From assembly GCF_003432115.1 (NCBI RefSeq), contig NZ_QWDC01000001.1, positions 1,612,001 to 1,676,000 of the forward strand: a DNA stretch of 64,000 bases, written 5' to 3'. The notes below the pieces were generated by a model. It was not told where the DNA came from, searched no databases, and saw nothing but the letters and a program-made list of their open reading frames with translations. This DNA is from Mucilaginibacter conchicola. Lineage in GTDB: Bacteria; Bacteroidota; Bacteroidia; Sphingobacteriales; Sphingobacteriaceae. The number at the start of each line of letters is the position of its first letter. Within the stretch, counting starts at the first letter, position 1. Positions 4,415 through 48,959 of the stretch are shown here, in pieces. Both the position numbers and the translations under genes were made by a program.

Positions 4415-5995
4415 ATGTCTGCCAGTTCTGCTTCATCTCACAAGATCATCCTTTACATTGTATTTGCATTGGTAACCGTAATGGGTATACTGTTGCTTGT
4501 TAACCCTGCAGGGGTGTACCCGGATGCTGCCTGGGGTTTCCAGGTTTGGCGTGGAATGCAAAAAGGGCACGGCTTTAATATATTAACGCTACCCGGCCAA
4601 TGGGACATCGCTCAAAACGGCGAAGAGTTTAAATCCTGGTGGTCTCCGGGGCAATATTTAGTACCGGGGATATTTCAAAAACTTTTCGGGCTTGATCTGG
4701 GGCATGCGTCATCACTAACGGTAGTCATCTGTCAATACCTGGGGCTTGCCGGTTTATATCAATTCTTCAAAAAAGCCGGCTTCAGCAAAACTATCAGCGC
4801 GCTGGCAATATTGGTTATAGCGCTGCAGCAGTCGTTTTTTACGCCATATATATTTTACAATGGCGGCGAGGTGTTACTTTTTGCGTTTATTGGCTGGTTC
4901 CTGTATGGCTGTTTGCATTTCAATAAGCCAAGTATCGCATTAGCCGTTTTTGTTCTCCTGGCGGGATGGATTGGCTTCTTCGCTAAATCATCATTTATGT
5001 GGATGTATGCCGCCGGGCTGATCTATATGTGGATCCAGTTATCGCGCCATACCACGCATATTAAACATTGGCTGGTAAACGGCTTTTGGGTAGGCGTGCC
5101 TGCCGTTATATCGTTGGCGGTTATTTACGTAACCTATTTGTCTAAAGGCTTAAACCCATCATCGCAGTCGCTTGGGTTAGATTCTACTATAAAAGTATTT
5201 GCCTTCCCACTCGCTTCGCCCCTGCTGGCAGGTTTCTCTTTGGATGACCTGGCTAACGGGTTGATAGAGCATAACGGCAACGTAATATTTAATCCTGTAC
5301 AAGCCATCATTATAATAGCACTGCTTGCGGTCTTGAGTATCGTACTTATCTGCGCCATCTGCAAACGCGTGCCCGATAACCGTTACAGTACCATGCTGGT
5401 AATATTTTATATCGTATCTGTTTTTTTTCTCGGTTCATCGTTCTTCAGAAAACTGGATATTTCTTTCGAGGCAAGGCATTTCCGTATCATCGGCCTGCTC
5501 ATCATACCGGGAACTATTTACGTATTTAGCCGTGCGGCTAAAGCATATCGTTATGCATTCGGTGCGGTAGTTGGAGTTGTCGCGCTATTTTCATTAAAGT
5601 TCTACGTGCTGTCATACATCGGCTTAAAAACCGAAACTGTTTACGGCACCAGCGGTATTGCCCAGCAGTTTATTGATAAAGAAAGTTTGGATTACATCCG
5701 CATGCTGGATAACCATAACAAGAATGCCGTGTTTGTATTTTTCAGCCCGGATCTGGGCTTGGAGATCAACCATAACCGTTCGATAACCTTAGAGCCGCTG
5801 AACAGCGATATCAGCATCAACGTAGACGATTACATCCATAAAGGCCACGCCGGCCCGCTCTACATACTGATGCCACATAAATACATTGGCATACGCGCCA
5901 GTGTGATCCTCAAATCTTTCCCGGGGTATAAAGGTTTCTCGCTTAAAGAACTAAGCGACAATTATGTACTTTACTTTGCTACCGAAGCAAGGTAA
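4415..5995 (+). CDS. Polytopic membrane protein, possible GT-C type glycosyltransferase
   Basis: 526 residues with roughly eleven to twelve membrane segments up to about residue 410, then a soluble C-terminal domain of ~115 residues. After the first membrane segment there is a loop with PDAAWGFQVWRG, reminiscent of the first periplasmic loop of GT-C glycosyltransferases where a catalytic Asp sits, followed by EEFKSWWSPGQYLVP. That topology suggests a lipid-linked sugar transferase or a polysaccharide-modifying enzyme, but no family signature is decisive. The ATG at 4415 follows the acetyltransferase stop by two bases. The gene ends at 5995, directly abutting the convergent obgE stop with no intervening terminator. 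Confidence 0.7.
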   Translation: MSASSASSHKIILYIVFALVTVMGILLLVNPAGVYPDAAWGFQVWRGMQKGHGFNILTLPGQWDIAQNGEEFKSWWSPGQYLVPGIFQKLFGLDLGHASSLTVVICQYLGLAGLYQFFKKAGFSKTISALAILVIALQQSFFTPYIFYNGGEVLLFAFIGWFLYGCLHFNKPSIALAVFVLLAGWIGFFAKSSFMWMYAAGLIYMWIQLSRHTTHIKHWLVNGFWVGVPAVISLAVIYVTYLSKGLNPSSQSLGLDSTIKVFAFPLASPLLAGFSLDDLANGLIEHNGNVIFNPVQAIIIIALLAVLSIVLICAICKRVPDNRYSTMLVIFYIVSVFFLGSSFFRKLDISFEARHFRIIGLLIIPGTIYVFSRAAKAYRYAFGAVVGVVALFSLKFYVLSYIGLKTETVYGTSGIAQQFIDKESLDYIRMLDNHNKNAVFVFFSPDLGLEINHNRSITLEPLNSDISINVDDYIHKGHAGPLYILMPHKYIGIRASVILKSFPGYKGFSLKELSDNYVLYFATEAR

Positions 5996-6994
5996 TTAAC
6001 GGGTAATTTCCTTCCAGAGCATATCTTTCAGCTCGGTAATGCCTTTTTGCGCTACCGATGATATGAATACGTGAGGTACATCTTTCGGCACTTCCTTCTC
6101 CATTTCGTCCTGTAACTCTTTATCCAGCATATCGGCTTTGGTAATGGCCAGTACGCGTGGTTTGTGCATCAGTTCGGGGTTATACTCGTTCAACTCGTTA
6201 AGTAAAATATCGTATTCCTCTTTAATGGTGCGGTTGGTATCGGCAGGTACCATAAACAGCAGCGTAGAGTTACGCTCAATATGGCGAAGGAAACGGATAC
6301 CCAATCCCTTACCCTGCGATGCACCTTCTATAATACCCGGAATATCGGCCATTACAAATGAGCGGTTATCGCGGTAGCTCACAATACCCAGGTTGGGCAC
6401 AAGCGTAGTGAAAGCGTAGTCAGCTATCTCCGGTTTAGCTGCTGATACTACTGATAGCAAGGTTGATTTACCTGCATTTGGAAAACCTACCAAACCAACA
6501 TCGGCCAGTAGTTTCAGTTCCAGTATATTCCAGTCTTCTTTTCCATCCTCGCCGGGTTGGGCAAAGCGCGGGGTTTGCTGGGTTGGTGTTTTAAAGTGCC
6601 AGTTACCCAAACCACCACGGCCGCCGGGGGTGATTATTTTGGTCTCACCATCAGTATTTATCTCAAACAGTATCTCGCCTGTTTCGGCATTACGCGCAAT
6701 GGTACCCAGTGGCACTTCAAGTATCTCATCGCGGCCGGTTTTGCCCGAGCGCTGTGAGCTACCGCCCGATTCACCGTCGCCGGCTATAACGTGCTTGCGG
6801 AATTTAAGGTGAAGCAGCGTCCATAACTGGGCGTTACCTTTTACAATAACGTGCCCGCCACGGCCGCCATCGCCGCCATCAGGGCCGCCTTTGGCTGTAA
6901 AAACATCACGGTGCAGGTGCGCAGAGCCCGGCCCGCCATGGCCAGACCGGCAGCATATTTTTACGTAATCGACAAAGTTGGATCCCTGAGACAT
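5996..6994 (-). CDS. obgE: Obg/CgtA family GTPase
   Basis: 332 residues. Residues 1-160 form the glycine-rich Obg fold ([23 protein letters not shown]); residues ~160-330 are the GTPase with G1 [10 protein letters not shown]3 DIPGI, and G4 TKAD. Length fits the short form without the C-terminal OCT domain. Role by family: essential GTPase in late 50S ribosome assembly and stress response. It is transcribed after adk with a 92-nt spacer holding a hairpin (7013-7065). Start ATG at 6994 chosen from the conserved NFVDYVKI beginning. Confidence 0.97.
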
Positions 6995-42216: not shown

Positions 42217-42654
42217 ATGATACTAATTGATACAGGTATAGTTTTGCTCACCATTGCCGTAATGGAACTGCTCTCATGGGCTATGCATAAATACCTGTTT
42301 CACGGACCGCTTTGGTTTATCCACAAAACCCATCACCAGCAACGCCACGGCTGGTTTGAGCTGAATGATCTTTTCAGCATTGGCTTTGCAGCATTCTCGC
42401 TCTGGCTGATGTGGCTGGGGCACTTTACCTTGGATTATCGATTCTGGATTGGCCTCGGTATTACCATCTACGGCATTATCTACTTCATCTTTCACGATTG
42501 GTTTATCCATAACCGTTTCAAGGCATTTAAAAGTACTAACCGCTATTTGATGGGTATCCGCCGGGCGCATAAAATGCACCATAAGTCAACGGAAAAAAAC
42601 CCGTCGGAAGAGTTTGGGTTGCTGGTGGCGAGCAGGAAGTGGTTTAAGAGGTAA
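42217..42654 (+). CDS. crtZ: Beta-carotene hydroxylase
   Basis: 145 residues, four membrane segments. All histidine boxes of the fatty-acid-hydroxylase-type diiron carotenoid hydroxylases are visible: HKYLFH, HKTHH, HDWFIHNR and HKMHH. It adds 3-hydroxyl groups to the beta-ionone rings, giving zeaxanthin from beta-carotene at the membrane. It lies 1 nt after the redoxin stop and is separated from crtY/crtB/crtI by murB and a sigma factor. A REP-like element follows 13 nt after the stop. Confidence 0.92.
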   Translation: MILIDTGIVLLTIAVMELLSWAMHKYLFHGPLWFIHKTHHQQRHGWFELNDLFSIGFAAFSLWLMWLGHFTLDYRFWIGLGITIYGIIYFIFHDWFIHNRFKAFKSTNRYLMGIRRAHKMHHKSTEKNPSEEFGLLVASRKWFKR

Positions 42655-44048: not shown

Positions 44049-44612
44049 ATGTCTGTACAAAACATTAACAGAATGACAAAGATTGAGTTTAACACCCTGG
44101 TATTACGTCAAGCAAGTTCTTTAAGGTCTTATGCCTTACACTTTACTCACGACGCCGACGATGCAAACGACCTTGTTCAGGACACAATGTTAAAAGCCAT
44201 TACTTATTACAATAAGTTTAAAGAAGGCACTAACCTGAAAGGCTGGTTGTATACCATCATGAAGAACACCTTCATCAACAACTACCGCCGTTTTGTTAAA
44301 ATGAGCACTTTTGTTACAAAAAGCGACGAGATATCTTCTCCAAACCTGGTATTTAGTTCTACTAAAAACCAAGGCGAAGCTAAATTTGTAATGGATGATA
44401 TCAAACGCGCTTTAGACCGCTTACCATCAGATTACTATGTGCCTTTCACCATGTACTTTGAAGGTCACAAATACCACGAAATTGCCGATCACCTGGATAT
44501 CCCTATCGGTACAGTAAAAACCCGTATCCACGTAGCACGCAAATTGCTTAAAAAGAATTTGAAAGCTTACGATAATGGTGTAGCAAAACCAGTTTACGCC
44601 GAAATGGAATAA
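44049..44612 (+). CDS. ECF-type RNA polymerase sigma factor
   Basis: 187 residues from ATG 44049; a second ATG at 44073 (MTKIEFNTLV) is an equally possible start. Sigma-2 region: YALHFTHDADDANDLVQDTMLKAITYYNKF with the NLKGWLYTIMKNTFINNYRR helix; sigma-4 region: LDRLPSDYYVPFTMYFEGHKYHEIADHLDIPIGTVKTRIHVAR (each quoted in part). The ~250 bp upstream hold no gene, and no anti-sigma gene is adjacent. It lies between crtZ and the rest of the carotenoid genes; control of pigment genes is possible but not shown. Confidence 0.88.
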   Translation: MSVQNINRMTKIEFNTLVLRQASSLRSYALHFTHDADDANDLVQDTMLKAITYYNKFKEGTNLKGWLYTIMKNTFINNYRRFVKMSTFVTKSDEISSPNLVFSSTKNQGEAKFVMDDIKRALDRLPSDYYVPFTMYFEGHKYHEIADHLDIPIGTVKTRIHVARKLLKKNLKAYDNGVAKPVYAEME

Positions 44613-44796: not shown

Positions 44797-45033
44797 CTAC
44801 GCCAACTTCCCTACTACCAAAAATTTCTCAAACACAGTCTCGGTATGCGGTGCATCAGCCAATTCCTCGGTTAAGTCCTGCCCTGCCCAGTGTTCGTAGT
44901 GTTTGCCGTTGCGCCAAAGGCGGCTGTCGGTCACATCATAGATAATGCCTTTGTAGGCCACCCATATCTGTGGTTTATCCTGCCCGTTGCGCAGGGCCAG
45001 TTGAGAGCGGGTGTAGATGGGCAGTTCCGTCAT
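44797..45033 (-). CDS. Small cytochrome b5-like (MAPR-type) heme-binding domain protein
   Basis: 78 residues, one complete small cytochrome-b5-like fold: YTRSQLALRNG start, IWVAYKGIIYDVTDS core strand, then KHYEHWAGQDLTEELADAPH. The axial HPGG histidine of true cytochrome b5 is absent; the Tyr in HYEHWAGQDLT matches the heme-ligating Tyr of the PGRMC/MAPR family. No signal peptide. ATG (45031-45033) overlaps the lycopene cyclase stop by four bases, so the two are translationally coupled. Candidate electron carrier or heme protein; unproven. Confidence 0.75.
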   Translation of the reverse strand: MTELPIYTRSQLALRNGQDKPQIWVAYKGIIYDVTDSRLWRNGKHYEHWAGQDLTEELADAPHTETVFEKFLVVGKLA

Positions 45034-45707
45034 GCGGCAAGTTTACGGCGCTTTTTGAAATGTTCAAAAAAAGCAATGTTCATCATCAGTAAAGCCATGC
45101 TGTAAAAATGATCTTCTACGGGGATGGTCGTGATCCTGATGCCCATGTTTTGATCGTTATTATACAGTACAACCGGGATGGAGGTGAGTAATCCGTTCAC
45201 TATATAAAACGGGATCAGTGATACAAAATAGGCCATATAAAATCGCGACAGCCAGCCCTTTTTCAATGTAAAAAACAACACCAATGGCAGCAGAGCGAAA
45301 GTAACTACAGTATACAATCTATCGTAATAGATGGCCGATAACACAAGTGAGAGTATGATCAGCGCTATGGAGAGGTTCCTCGCCATCATCCGTGGCAATT
45401 GCCATTTTACGTAGTAGTTTAAACAGGCATAAATAAATAAACAGGCAAAGGGTACAGTTAAAAAGAAAAGGATCTCCTCTAAAGGCAATCCGAAAAATTT
45501 AAGTCCGATAATATGATCGGGGCTAAAGGACCATACGCCGTGGATGGTAAACATCACATCCCAAAACAAGAACACCAAACCGGTGATGGCCATGCCCGGC
45601 CAAATAAATCGCCAGGTTTTGGCAAAAGCCACCCGCTTATCAAACGACAGCACCACCGGGAAAAAGATGGTGAGCACATTAATGATGAGGTAGGTGTAGT
45701 TTTTCAC
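45030..45707 (-). CDS. Lycopene beta-cyclase, fused CrtYc-CrtYd type
   Basis: 225 residues, about six to seven membrane segments, made of two repeats of the lycopene cyclase domain. Each half carries the expected acidic signature: LPLEEILFF in the first (~76) and IPVEDHFYS in the second (~199). It is the integral-membrane, non-flavin type that closes both ends of lycopene to beta-carotene. GTG start (45705-45707) overlaps the TAG stop of the upstream gene (TAGTG), indicating coupled translation; stop overlaps the next ATG. Confidence 0.88.
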   Translation of the reverse strand: MKNYTYLIINVLTIFFPVVLSFDKRVAFAKTWRFIWPGMAITGLVFLFWDVMFTIHGVWSFSPDHIIGLKFFGLPLEEILFFLTVPFACLFIYACLNYYVKWQLPRMMARNLSIALIILSLVLSAIYYDRLYTVVTFALLPLVLFFTLKKGWLSRFYMAYFVSLIPFYIVNGLLTSIPVVLYNNDQNMGIRITTIPVEDHFYSMALLMMNIAFFEHFKKRRKLAA

Positions 45708-46282
45708 TATAACGCAGCTAAATGTTCTTTAAGGTTGGTATTCTCGGCAGGCGTGCAACGTTTAGAATCGATCAAAAAATTAATGATGGTTTTCACCAGT
45801 GTTTTATCAGCCGACGAATAATATTTGCGATCGATCTGTTTGATCATCTCTTCCCTGTCGGCAATCAAATTTTTGTTATAGCCTAAGAACTTAGGCACGT
45901 TATGCTCTATAGAAAAACGCATAAAACGGATCTCGATATTATGCGGATCATTTGCAACTGCATTTTTGAAAGTCTTCTCGCTATCGTTCAAATACTTTAC
46001 CTTAAAGTACGGGTTCCAGGCATGCTTAGCTTTCAACGCCTCAAGGGTACCCATGTAGGCATTCAGCAAGGCTGAGCGGTCTTTTACATCTGCCAGGTGC
46101 GAATAGAGCGAATCGGTGGTTTTTTTGCTATCCAAAGCGGTAACCAACAACTTGCGGATCTTGTGCAGGTCGGCTTCGGCAATATGATCATAGGTGAATG
46201 CCGATGTGGTGAACAATATGGTTACAGCCAAAGCATACACCCATAGCCATACTTTACGAGGGATGATAAAAGCGGCGGTCAT
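45707..46282 (-). CDS. Unknown membrane-anchored protein in the carotenoid operon
   Basis: 191 residues. An N-terminal hydrophobic segment (KVWLWVYALAVTILFTTSAF) is a signal anchor or signal peptide; the rest is soluble, helical and charged, with a Leu/Lys/Glu-rich pattern suggestive of TPR-like helices (KHAWNPYFKVKYL; KTFKNAVANDPHNIEIRFMRF) and a Tyr-rich stretch before the end. Lies between crtB (9 nt) and the lycopene cyclase (overlapping), so it is locked in the operon. I do not recognise a function. Confidence 0.8.
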   Translation of the reverse strand: MTAAFIIPRKVWLWVYALAVTILFTTSAFTYDHIAEADLHKIRKLLVTALDSKKTTDSLYSHLADVKDRSALLNAYMGTLEALKAKHAWNPYFKVKYLNDSEKTFKNAVANDPHNIEIRFMRFSIEHNVPKFLGYNKNLIADREEMIKQIDRKYYSSADKTLVKTIINFLIDSKRCTPAENTNLKEHLAAL

Positions 46283-46291
46283 GGTAAATGG

Positions 46292-47125
46292 TTAAATAAA
46301 ATTCAGCTTCCGGTGCAGGCGGGCTTTTAAATACAGGCCCAGCTTCTGCGTATCAGAAACCCGAATACGTTTTTCAATTATGGTACAGGCCGAAGTTGCA
46401 CTTATTTTTTTGAAAAGTTGCAGATAGTAAACATAGGCCACATAAACGCCCAACCGGCTCCCTTTTGGCAATTGTTTGATACCTTCCAGGGCGTCATCAA
46501 AATCCTTTTTAATATCTGCCTCTATCAGTCTCTTGTCCTCTTCGGTAAAGTTTGTAAAATCTACCTCAGGGAAATAAGTACGACCGCGGTCTTCATAGTC
46601 AGACTTGATATCGCGCAAAAAGTTTATTTTCTGAAATGCTGATCCTAAACTTCGAGCTTTGGGTACCAGCTTTTCATACAGGGCAGGGTCATTCTCGCAG
46701 AACACCCGTAGGCACATCAGACCCACCACCTCGGCAGAGCCGTAGATATAGGTCTTATAGCCATCATCGCTGTAAGCGGTTTTATCCAGATCCATCCGCA
46801 TGGAGCGCAGAAAAGCTTCTATCAAATCTTTTTCTACCCCGTATTGATTAACCACCTGCTGAAAGGACTGCAGCACCGGGTTGGTGCTGATGCCGCGGTC
46901 GATGGCTTTAAATGTTTCGGCCTGAAAATCGTCTATCAGTTCGCGCTGGTTGTGGTCGTAAAAGGTATCTACAATTTCATCCGCGTAGCGCACAAAGCCG
47001 TAGATGGCATAAACCGGATAACGGAACTTTTTATCGAACGCGCGGATGCCGGTACTAAACGAAGTGCTGTACTTTTGGGTTATAACTTTGCTGCATTCAA
47101 AACAGGTTTCATCAAACAGGTTCAT
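46292..47125 (-). CDS. crtB: Phytoene synthase
   Basis: 277 residues from ATG 47125; a 48-residue upstream extension of the frame runs into the crtI promoter region and start and is not conserved. Squalene/phytoene synthase family: first aspartate-rich motif YADEIVDTFYD (~50), GSAEVVGLM (~133), and second motif KINFLRDIKSDYEDRGRTYFP (given in part, LRDIKSDYEDRGR). Condenses two geranylgeranyl diphosphates to phytoene. Divergent from crtI with 71 bp between the starts. Confidence 0.93.
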   Translation of the reverse strand: MNLFDETCFECSKVITQKYSTSFSTGIRAFDKKFRYPVYAIYGFVRYADEIVDTFYDHNQRELIDDFQAETFKAIDRGISTNPVLQSFQQVVNQYGVEKDLIEAFLRSMRMDLDKTAYSDDGYKTYIYGSAEVVGLMCLRVFCENDPALYEKLVPKARSLGSAFQKINFLRDIKSDYEDRGRTYFPEVDFTNFTEEDKRLIEADIKKDFDDALEGIKQLPKGSRLGVYVAYVYYLQLFKKISATSACTIIEKRIRVSDTQKLGLYLKARLHRKLNFI

Positions 47126-47196: not shown

Positions 47197-48678
47197 ATGA
47201 GTAAAAAAGAGCGCGTAGTTGTAATAGGGGCCGGTTTTGCGGGACTGGCATCGGCATGTGTATTGGCAAAAGATGGTTATGAAGTTACCGTATTGGAAAA
47301 GAACGACCAGCCCGGCGGCCGTGCCCGCGTTTGGGAAAAAGATGGTTTTACTTTTGATATGGGACCAAGCTGGTACTGGATGCCCGATGTGTTCGAGAAC
47401 TTTTTTGCGCTGTTCGGCAAAAAGGCAAGCGACTTTTATGAATTGAAACGTCTCGACCCAGGCTACCGTATTTACTACGGCAAGGATGATCCGATGGACG
47501 TGCCTGCCAATATGCAGCAACTGGAAGACCTTTTTGAGCAGACCGAGCCCGGCAGCAGCAAGGGTTTGCGCAAATTTCTGGAACAGGCCGAATATAAATA
47601 CCGGGTAAGCATGAACGATTATGTTTTCCGCCCGTCGCATTCCATTACCGAGTTTATAGATTGGCAACTGATCCGCAAAAGTATGAGTATGCAGTTGCTT
47701 ACCAGCATGAGCAGCCATGTGCGCAAGTACTTTAAAAACCCTAAGCTGATAAAAATGCTGGAATTCCCGGTGTTGTTCCTGGGTGCTACGCCGAAAGATA
47801 CACCCGCCATGTATAGCATGATGAATTATGCCGACCTTGCCCTTGGTACCTGGTACCCCATGGGCGGGATGAACGAGATAGTGAAAGCGATAGTGAGTAT
47901 TGCCGCGGATTTAGGCGTGGAGATAAAACCGAATACAGAGGTTACCCGGTTAGATATAACTAACGGAAAGGTAAGCACCATCCAAACTAACAGCGGAACT
48001 TACGAGGCAGATATGATCATTTCCGGTGCAGATTATGAGCATACCGACCAGCACCTGTTGCCTAAAGCGGCTCGAAACTATTCAGAGAAATATTGGGATA
48101 GCCGCACCATGTCGCCGTCAAGTTTGCTGTTCTACATCGGCACCAATAAAAAAGTGGAAGGTATAGAGCATCATAACCTGTTTTTTGATGAGGATTTTGA
48201 CCGCCACGCCACCGAGATATACAAACAACCTCAATGGCCAAGCGAGCCTTTATTCTACGTTTGCTGTTCATCTAAAACCGATCCGGCCTGTGCACCAGAA
48301 GGCGGCGAGAACCTATTTTTCCTGATGCCGATAGCGCCCGACCTTAAAGACCATGAGCAAACCCGCGAGCGTTATTTTGAACTGCTGACGGACAGGTTTG
48401 AACACATCACCGGTCAAAGCATCCGCAACAACATTGTTGTAAAACGCAGCTATGCCTTGGATGATTTTAAAGCCGATTATCACTCCTTTAAAGGTAACGC
48501 CTACGGCCTGGCTAATACGCTGGCTCAAACTGCCTTTTTTAAACCGGCCATGAAGGCTAAGCATGTTAAAAATCTGCTGCATACCGGCCAGCTAACTGTA
48601 CCTGGGCCGGGCGTACCACCGGCATTAATATCAGGGCAAATTGCTGCTAAGGAAGCGATAAAGATGATGGGAGACTAA
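47197..48678 (+). CDS. crtI: Phytoene desaturase
   Basis: 493 residues from ATG 47197 (an upstream TTG at 47179 is less likely). FAD-binding VVVIGAGFAGLASA at the N-terminus with GGRARVWEKDGFTFDMGPSW following (quoted in part), and the C-terminal carotenoid-desaturase signature LLHTGQLTVPGPGVPPA. It introduces the conjugated double bonds converting phytoene to lycopene. Divergent from the crtB operon; its last four bases overlap the toxin gene on the other strand. Confidence 0.94.
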   Translation: MSKKERVVVIGAGFAGLASACVLAKDGYEVTVLEKNDQPGGRARVWEKDGFTFDMGPSWYWMPDVFENFFALFGKKASDFYELKRLDPGYRIYYGKDDPMDVPANMQQLEDLFEQTEPGSSKGLRKFLEQAEYKYRVSMNDYVFRPSHSITEFIDWQLIRKSMSMQLLTSMSSHVRKYFKNPKLIKMLEFPVLFLGATPKDTPAMYSMMNYADLALGTWYPMGGMNEIVKAIVSIAADLGVEIKPNTEVTRLDITNGKVSTIQTNSGTYEADMIISGADYEHTDQHLLPKAARNYSEKYWDSRTMSPSSLLFYIGTNKKVEGIEHHNLFFDEDFDRHATEIYKQPQWPSEPLFYVCCSSKTDPACAPEGGENLFFLMPIAPDLKDHEQTRERYFELLTDRFEHITGQSIRNNIVVKRSYALDDFKADYHSFKGNAYGLANTLAQTAFFKPAMKAKHVKNLLHTGQLTVPGPGVPPALISGQIAAKEAIKMMGD

Positions 48679-48959
48679 AAGGCATTAGGATTACGGCTTG
48701 TATGAAAAACAGCATTTACGATTATTGACTGATCGACTATTTCAAAAACGATTAGAAACGGGAATATATCAGTTTTTGCAAATCTGAATACCTCTGAAAA
48801 TCTAACCTGATACAATAAAGGGTTTTGCTGAATAAGATCAAGCTTGCTAAACACTGTTTTCTGGAATCTCTTACCTAAACCTTGCTGACGCTCTTCGTAC
48901 CAATCATGTGCATCCCGGATATCTGCAATTGCACCATCAAGCAACAGTATGTTATACAT
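48675..48959 (-). CDS. RelE/ParE-type toxin of a toxin-antitoxin pair
   Basis: 94 residues with the RelE/ParE fold order: beta strand MYNILLLDGA, helices around DIRDAHDWYEERQQGLGKRFQKTVFSKLDLI, then strands PLLYQVRFSEVFRFAK, FPFLIVFEIVDQSIIVNAVFH and a terminal SRNP. The DWYEERQQGLG stretch is typical of this group. Two bases after the antitoxin stop. Whether it is a ribosome-dependent RNase or a gyrase inhibitor cannot be told. Confidence 0.85.
   Translation of the reverse strand: MYNILLLDGAIADIRDAHDWYEERQQGLGKRFQKTVFSKLDLIQQNPLLYQVRFSEVFRFAKTDIFPFLIVFEIVDQSIIVNAVFHTSRNPNAF

Follow-up and report, generated by a model that had tools for sequence, protein, structure and literature searches.

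HusA, a haemophore of Porphyromonas gingivalis, is built of nine helices that form a superhelix resembling TPR and 14-3-3 proteins without conforming to the TPR motif, and binds a flat hydrophobic ligand in its concave groove (PMC6173696). BstC, a TPR-like protein of the outer envelope, has been proposed to help move sterol, an isoprenoid made in the cytosol, to the outer membrane (PMC10942540). Flexirubin sits in the outer membrane, and the LolA2 and LolB2 proteins of its cluster have been proposed as carriers of the pigment (PMC3992019, PMC11885536). In Chryseobacterium lacus, only eight genes were reported to be raised by light, among them the genes for the four crt enzymes, for a lipocalin of the outer membrane, and RS06200, a gene beside crtB; that report describes RS06200 as hypothetical only and guesses, by analogy with CarA/LitR, that it is a light regulator (PMC7064467). 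Apart from this hypothetical gene, searches of open-access text listed no paper describing the family treated here, and PMC9478572 contained nothing on the gene.

How pigments that do not dissolve in water pass from their enzymes to their site in the envelope is largely an open question in Gram-negative bacteria. To our knowledge, no carotenoid chaperone or shuttle has been reported from the Gram-negative periplasm. Here, we describe a single protein family whose genes accompany those for carotenoids as well as those for flexirubins, and that offers a direct handle on pigment transfer in the form of a small soluble protein.

The gene and its operon in the window

The window (the whole stretch of 64,000 nucleotides of Mucilaginibacter conchicola DNA that was analyzed) contains on its minus strand a gene (45707..46282, ATG to TAG) for an exported, all-helical protein of 191 amino acids that belongs to an unnamed family. 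The gene follows crtB (phytoene synthase; 46292..47125, minus strand, ATG at 47125; PF00494, E 3e-46), whose TAA stop is separated from the ATG of the gene by 9 nt, and precedes a lycopene cyclase gene of the CarR/crtYcd type (45030..45707, minus strand; PF18916, E 2e-39; TIGR03462), whose GTG start shares one base, G, with the TAG of the 191-aa gene (TAGTG). Both junctions had been pointed out in a preliminary description of this DNA and were confirmed in the sequence. The operon extends past the cyclase, whose stop overlaps (ATGA) the start of a gene for a 78-aa protein with a cytochrome b5-like domain (44797..45033, minus strand; PF00173, E 3e-10). This protein, encoded by the last gene of the operon, is possibly an electron donor to the crtZ-like hydroxylase encoded ~3 kb away from the 191-aa gene (42217..42654, plus strand; PF04116, E 4e-11); a profile started from the latter matched hydroxylase genes in related crt clusters. 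Also located here are an ECF sigma factor gene (44049..44612, plus strand; PF04542/PF08281), a divergent crtI encoding phytoene desaturase (47197..48678, plus strand; NF058655 over cut-off), and a ParE-type toxin gene convergent to crtI (48675-48959, minus strand; PF05016).

Among 60 shuffles of the surrounding 6 kb, the longest open run comprised 183 codons, and none reached 191. Relatives of the 191-aa protein in alignment A1 share 27-67% identity, and because such relatives exist, 45707-46282 is a true gene. The preliminary description had called the product an unknown protein unlike known carotenoid enzymes, which agrees with our searches of Pfam and NCBIfam, where the window protein matched nothing above chance, including any carotenoid enzyme model; a carotenoid enzyme was ruled out on this profile evidence. 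When 30 homologs were compared with Pfam at E 0.01, 29 had no match, and one had a single weak match to Laminin_N (E 0.0074). At the same threshold, neither the window protein nor the 30 homologs matched a TPR profile, and a family profile of the TRAP-T/TatT/BstC type in Pfam likewise matched none of them. No match to PHROGs was obtained for the window protein, and a phage family was accordingly ruled out.

Genomic settings of the family

With one sequence as the query, 42 of the 60 related genomes searched gave a match. The A1 profile, built from the first 30 loci, detected the family in 128 genomes of a class-wide sample of 295, in 105 of 148 genomes of one further family, and in 38 genomes of a phylum-wide sample of 198. 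A scan of named genomes yielded 200 stretches encoding relatives, the best 80 of these 200 being mostly from Mucilaginibacter and Pedobacter. The locus set comprised 140 loci (135 places from the class-wide profile search, with G000 and G028 of the class sample not re-cut, plus five second copies from the first search), of which 139 were counted, L275 being left out as it had no open frame above threshold. A further 40 regions were drawn from the one-family sample, namely all 27 places of its 13 multi-copy genomes and 13 places chosen from its 92 single-copy genomes. The window protein has each of the features that define the family: the profile match, an N-terminal hydrophobic signal, the Y76/E117/R122/P130/D142 pattern, and a place in a pigment cluster.

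The gene lay directly after crtB in 28 of the first 30 loci, the exceptions being L016, with no crtB in the flank, and L026, with other genes in between. Conservation in other crt clusters, which the preliminary description had proposed to examine, was borne out across the larger set, with 87 of the 139 loci placing the gene directly after crtB, eight near other crt-type genes, and 44 without crt genes. In these 87 loci, the likely start overlapped the crtB stop in 51 cases (by 4 nt in 28 and by 1 nt in 19) or lay 0-20 nt after it in 33. The gene that followed was far less constant, being IDI in 36 loci, crtZ in 19, the cyclase in 12 plus five in a looser cyclase cluster, a crtI-like gene in four, LytB/IspH in four, an SRPBCC-type gene in three, and in the last four either a different gene or none that could be assigned. 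The labels IDI, SRPBCC, and IspH were given to neighbors by eye, after which a single representative per label was compared with profiles, matching NUDIX PF00293 (IDI), PF03364 below the cut-off (SRPBCC), and LytB PF02401 (IspH). Since the gene following the family member varies, it is crtB, rather than the cyclase, to which the family gene is consistently tied. The suggestion that the protein helps to assemble lycopene cyclase was not upheld, given this inconstant neighbor and the members found in flexirubin and dialkylresorcinol clusters, and a cyclase assembly factor was rejected as the main role.

Carriage of the family was associated with carotenoid genes, as 117 of 128 carriers encoded PF00494 or PF18916 vs 84 of 167 non-carriers (odds ratio 10.5, Fisher p 6e-15, kinship not corrected for). 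Among the 11 carriers lacking both, four had DarB over the cut-off (G066, G102, G150, and G167), and five belonged to the M20-peptidase group described below. Conversely, 20 crtB loci without the gene were inspected, 18 of them from the 80 crtB-positive, family-negative genomes and two (G057 and G101) from genomes with a copy in a flexirubin cluster. No family member was detected at these 20 loci even by a broader profile, and crtB ran straight into the cyclase, crtZ, IDI, and other genes. Absence from other crt clusters, which the preliminary description had named as evidence against its proposal, is thus partly the case, as all 18 loci from family-negative genomes lack the gene. Because many complete crt clusters do without it, the family protein is an accessory of these clusters.

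Several other genes recurred in the neighborhood. An ECF sigma factor gene was present near 20 of the 87 crt loci in Bacteroidia and may control them. A gene for a MerR-type regulator that also has a B12-binding domain, likely a light sensor, was present at 25 of the 87 loci (for example, L175 1742-2626) and precedes many of these crt clusters; the one representative tested from this neighbor cluster matched PF13411 and PF02607. A lipocalin gene was located in or near the crt clusters of L163, L171, L210, L316, L320, L322, L324, L326, L328, and L343; those tested, from L171 and L343, both matched PF08212, and in the one-family sample, 7 of the 15 crt loci have a lipocalin gene following the cyclase. 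A START/SRPBCC-like lipid-binding protein was encoded in nine loci (for example, L171 5448-5912), ahead of crtZ in some crt clusters. In L242, a single open frame (4920-6080, minus strand) joins the C-terminus of a lycopene cyclase to a family protein. This may be a fusion, or else the stop codon may have been lost or the sequence may contain an error, the latter two being suggested by the signal-like segment that persists between the two parts, and we gave it little weight as evidence. In the genome matching C. lacus (L343, G351), the gene at the place of RS06200 was a family member (E 1.5e-41), and the gene order in G351, crtI-crtB-family gene-crtZ-cyclase-lipocalin, equals that of C. lacus; RS06200 is very probably a member of the family.

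The 44 crt-free loci are not randomly placed. Four of them, along with L229 from the eight loci near other crt-type genes, were flexirubin (aryl-polyene) blocks, and with 23 more among the 40 further regions, 28 flexirubin loci were found in all. The order ketosynthase-deacetylase-LolA-(lipoprotein)-dehydratase-family gene-glycosyltransferase 2 was kept in 26 of them; in the remaining two, which had few markers, the gene abutted the dehydratase gene, with FlxA and FlxB beside it, as profile-tested on L315 only. In L224, where the families were tested, the block consisted of a ketosynthase, a polysaccharide deacetylase, LolA (PF03548), a lipoprotein, a FabA-like dehydratase, the family gene, a glycosyltransferase 2 with DUF2062, and an MMPL exporter. 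A matching flexirubin polyene block is known from Chitinophaga pinensis and Flavobacterium johnsoniae (PMC3992019, PMC11885536). From gene order, and not from a sequence match, we take the lipoprotein adjoining LolA to be LolB2 and place a family member inside the complementing region Fjoh_1078-1089.

Six further loci ended on darA of a dialkylresorcinol block, darA-darB-darG-darH. In L277, DarB, DarG, and DarH exceeded their NCBIfam cut-offs; DarA matched no family, and its name rests on its position and on inspection by eye. The 40 further regions from one family divided into 15 crt, 23 flexirubin, and two neither. Of the 148 genomes of that family, 13 had more than one copy, and in 12 of these there was one crt and one flexirubin copy. 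The exception, G452, had one crt copy plus two short relatives that lack a signal (L331 6004-6414 and L332 5989-6408, ~12.6 kb apart) and lie in a polyketide-like cluster that also encodes an AMP ligase, a ketosynthase, and a phosphopantetheinyl transferase. A divergent clade in eight genomes (L258, L260, L261, L264-L266, L268, and L270) lies between epimerase-like and M20-peptidase-like genes, with no pigment genes near. In L180 and L198, which have no crt genes nearby, the member adjoins a gene of the head-GIN (DUF2807) type, assigned by PF10988 in L180 and by eye in L198. A tree was built of 140 members, and in it a single change was enough to account for each of the flexirubin, M20-peptidase, and darA groups (support 95, 100, and 76, respectively).

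Export signal, fold, and conserved residues

At its N-terminus, the window protein has a hydrophobic helix (residues 9-22; 46217..46258, minus strand) that starts with basic residues and serves as a signal peptide or an anchor. Its AlphaFold model places a helix at residues 9-23 ahead of an all-helical domain, with pLDDT mostly >95 in the domain and overall values of pLDDT 89.5 and pTM 0.78; nine helices run in series, the signal helix counted. The helical domain noted in the preliminary description is therefore reproduced by the model, and of the "signal anchor" described there, the N-terminal signal stands, with a cleavable signal peptide being equally possible. A flexirubin-type member was modeled with a similar order of helices (pLDDT 89.6, pTM 0.82). 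A hydrophobic stretch near the start was detected in 127 of the 139 open frames; the other 12 include at least one (L228) with the signal further down a long frame, and some that have none.

Structure comparison gave no relative above noise. TPR and 14-3-3 chains headed the Foldseek and VIA lists for the window model, and the best scores for the crt-type and flexirubin-type models were E 0.09 and 0.13 in Foldseek, at the noise level for helical proteins, and Z 12.1 and 9.6 in VIA, below a noise limit of ~13. HusA (PDB 6bqs) ranked third in Foldseek with the crt-type model and third in VIA with the flexirubin-type model (Z 9.2, rmsd 4.7, 150 aligned), both within helical-fold noise, and was absent from the best 50 Foldseek matches listed for the flexirubin-type model. 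UpxZ ranked first in Foldseek for the flexirubin-type model (E 0.13, within noise). BstC and TatT ranked lower, with weak matches for this superfamily (E 0.32 in Foldseek for the crt-type model, Z 7.9 in VIA for the flexirubin-type model). Searching the full set of PDB sequences with the profile at E 1 gave six matches, all designed helical proteins, with HusA absent, and no match to a LolA profile was found in the family protein, the models of which are all-helical. Since every fold match lies within noise, we claim none of the solved structures listed (TPR, 14-3-3, UpxZ, HusA, TatT, and BstC proteins) as a relative.

Residues R122, P130, and D142 (window numbering) were conserved in 100% of crt, flexirubin, darA, and M20 members with a letter at the position, and E117 in 83-100% across the four groups, based on 102 crt rows plus the window, 28 flexirubin, 6 darA, and 8 M20 rows; these percentages are not independent because the 102 crt rows include near-copies. 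The residues common to all four groups are polar or structural and form no obvious hydrophobic site, and no Ser, Cys, or His is invariant among family members. Comparing alignment A1 with A2, the rows of which are crt-type, added nothing to this picture.

Candidate roles and comparison with known systems

Carotenoids and flexirubins have no biosynthetic step in common, and the flexirubin and dialkylresorcinol clusters make non-isoprenoid pigments. As carotenoids and flexirubins share a long, rigid, very hydrophobic polyene made at the inner membrane, we infer that the protein acts on the product; because a periplasmic-side protein follows both pigment clusters, the product or its membrane neighborhood would be the target. 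Rather than aiding one enzyme, the window protein probably acts in the cell envelope on pigment that has already been made. Tentatively, and as the most probable of the readings considered, the family may consist of exported all-helical (TPR/14-3-3-like) envelope accessories that serve as periplasmic carriers or chaperones for polyene pigments, by analogy with HusA and BstC. This reading is favored because the flexirubin-cluster copies adjoin LolA-type and exporter genes, whose products are proposed pigment carriers. Also in its favor are the fixed places in crt, flexirubin, and dialkylresorcinol clusters, the sorting of copies by cluster, the co-occurrence with carotenoid genes, the export signal, the similar models of crt-type and flexirubin-type members with HusA third in one list for each, the light-raised gene of C. 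lacus, the outer-membrane location of flexirubin, and the lipocalin genes after the cyclase. On the periplasmic side of the inner membrane, the protein would take up the pigment, or a pigment-carrying lipid, into a hydrophobic groove and pass it on toward the outer membrane, much as porphyrin is bound by HusA and as has been proposed for BstC with sterols. Linkage to crtB would keep such a carrier in step with pathway flux, and the carrier would improve pigment placement and be dispensable for synthesis. Somewhat more doubtful is a dedicated periplasmic handling of carotenoids, in which a helical carrier akin to flexirubin export, with one copy per cluster, would have been specialized by paralogy, the outer-membrane lipocalin acting as receiver in some species. 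Counting against a carrier are the noise-level fold matches, the fact that TPR-like folds are mostly peptide binders, the polar conserved residues, the pigment-free M20 clade, the short relatives in L331 and L332, and the gene-free crtB loci in all 18 of 18 cases from family-negative genomes. Furthermore, carotenoids, unlike flexirubins, are reported to be inner-membrane pigments (PMC5932025), so an outer-membrane route may be unneeded.

CrtB, CrtI, and the flexirubin synthases are on the cytosolic side of the membrane. A scaffold or assembly factor on the periplasmic side, with a TPR-like groove that binds the tails of cluster proteins and organizes the membrane enzymes of pigment synthesis, would extend the proposal of the preliminary description to every polyene cluster and would suit the best fold matches (peptide-binding TPR and 14-3-3 domains, within noise), the tight coupling to crtB, the invariant charged residues R122 and D142, and the joined frame of L242. 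However, since those enzymes are cytosolic-side, a periplasmic protein would be out of reach of most enzymes of the clusters, no enzyme is common to flexirubin and carotenoid clusters, the cyclase is not a constant neighbor, and the L242 frame, with its signal-like segment between the two parts, may reflect a lost stop or a sequence error; we consider a scaffold unlikely. Less likely again is a general envelope protein that rides in pigment clusters through shared expression (under stress, in stationary phase, or in light) without acting on pigment. The 44 of 139 loci without a crt gene, only 10 of which are flexirubin or dialkylresorcinol loci, would be expected of such a passenger, as would the M20-peptidase clade and the many crt clusters that lack the gene, although the co-occurrence odds ratio argues otherwise, as do the places that the family occupies, fixed independently in pigment clusters of two unrelated kinds and with paralogs sorted by cluster.

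Tailoring or protection of the pigment in the periplasm by an enzyme or inhibitor, for instance with esterase-like or antioxidant activity, is improbable: the polar E117, R122, and D142, kept in nearly all members, speak for it, yet the all-helical fold has no obvious enzyme relative among the matches listed, and an invariant Ser, Cys, or His is lacking. The increase in expression with light alongside crt genes (PMC7064467) speaks for the role suggested for the C. lacus gene, in which the protein would sense light or regulate the pigment synthesis that light induces. Nonetheless, export and the lack of a DNA-binding domain led us to reject a light regulator, many of the same clusters have the separate MerR and B12-binding regulator, and the family also occurs in flexirubin clusters, making this the least probable of the readings. 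Ranked by probability, a carrier comes before a scaffold, followed by a passenger envelope protein, an enzyme, and a regulator. A carrier would give a testable role to a hypothetical protein encoded by 128 of the 295 genomes sampled from the class, and possibly a storage or placement factor for pigment engineers.

Compared with known systems, the family resembles HusA in being exported, helical, and found in Bacteroidota, and HusA ranked third in one structure list for each family model; unlike the family, HusA takes up external porphyrin and is not known from pigment clusters, and there is no detectable sequence relation between them. BstC is likewise helical, with a TPR-like fold of its own, and is encoded alongside biosynthetic genes (PMC10942540), but the family has no Pfam match to and only a weak fold match with BstC and TatT (TRAP T-component), and BstC works with BstA and BstB. 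Relatives of the family lie inside the transport block of flexirubin and aryl polyenes (LolA2, LolB2, and the MMPL exporter; ApeL, ApeM, and ApeN), whose proposed job, bringing a polyene to the outer membrane, is the one proposed here for the family. LolA and LolB are open beta-barrels (PMC11885536), whereas the family is all-helical and also occurs with carotenoid genes. RS06200 of C. lacus, like the window gene, comes directly after crtB; the order crtZ-cyclase-lipocalin that follows is that of RS06200.
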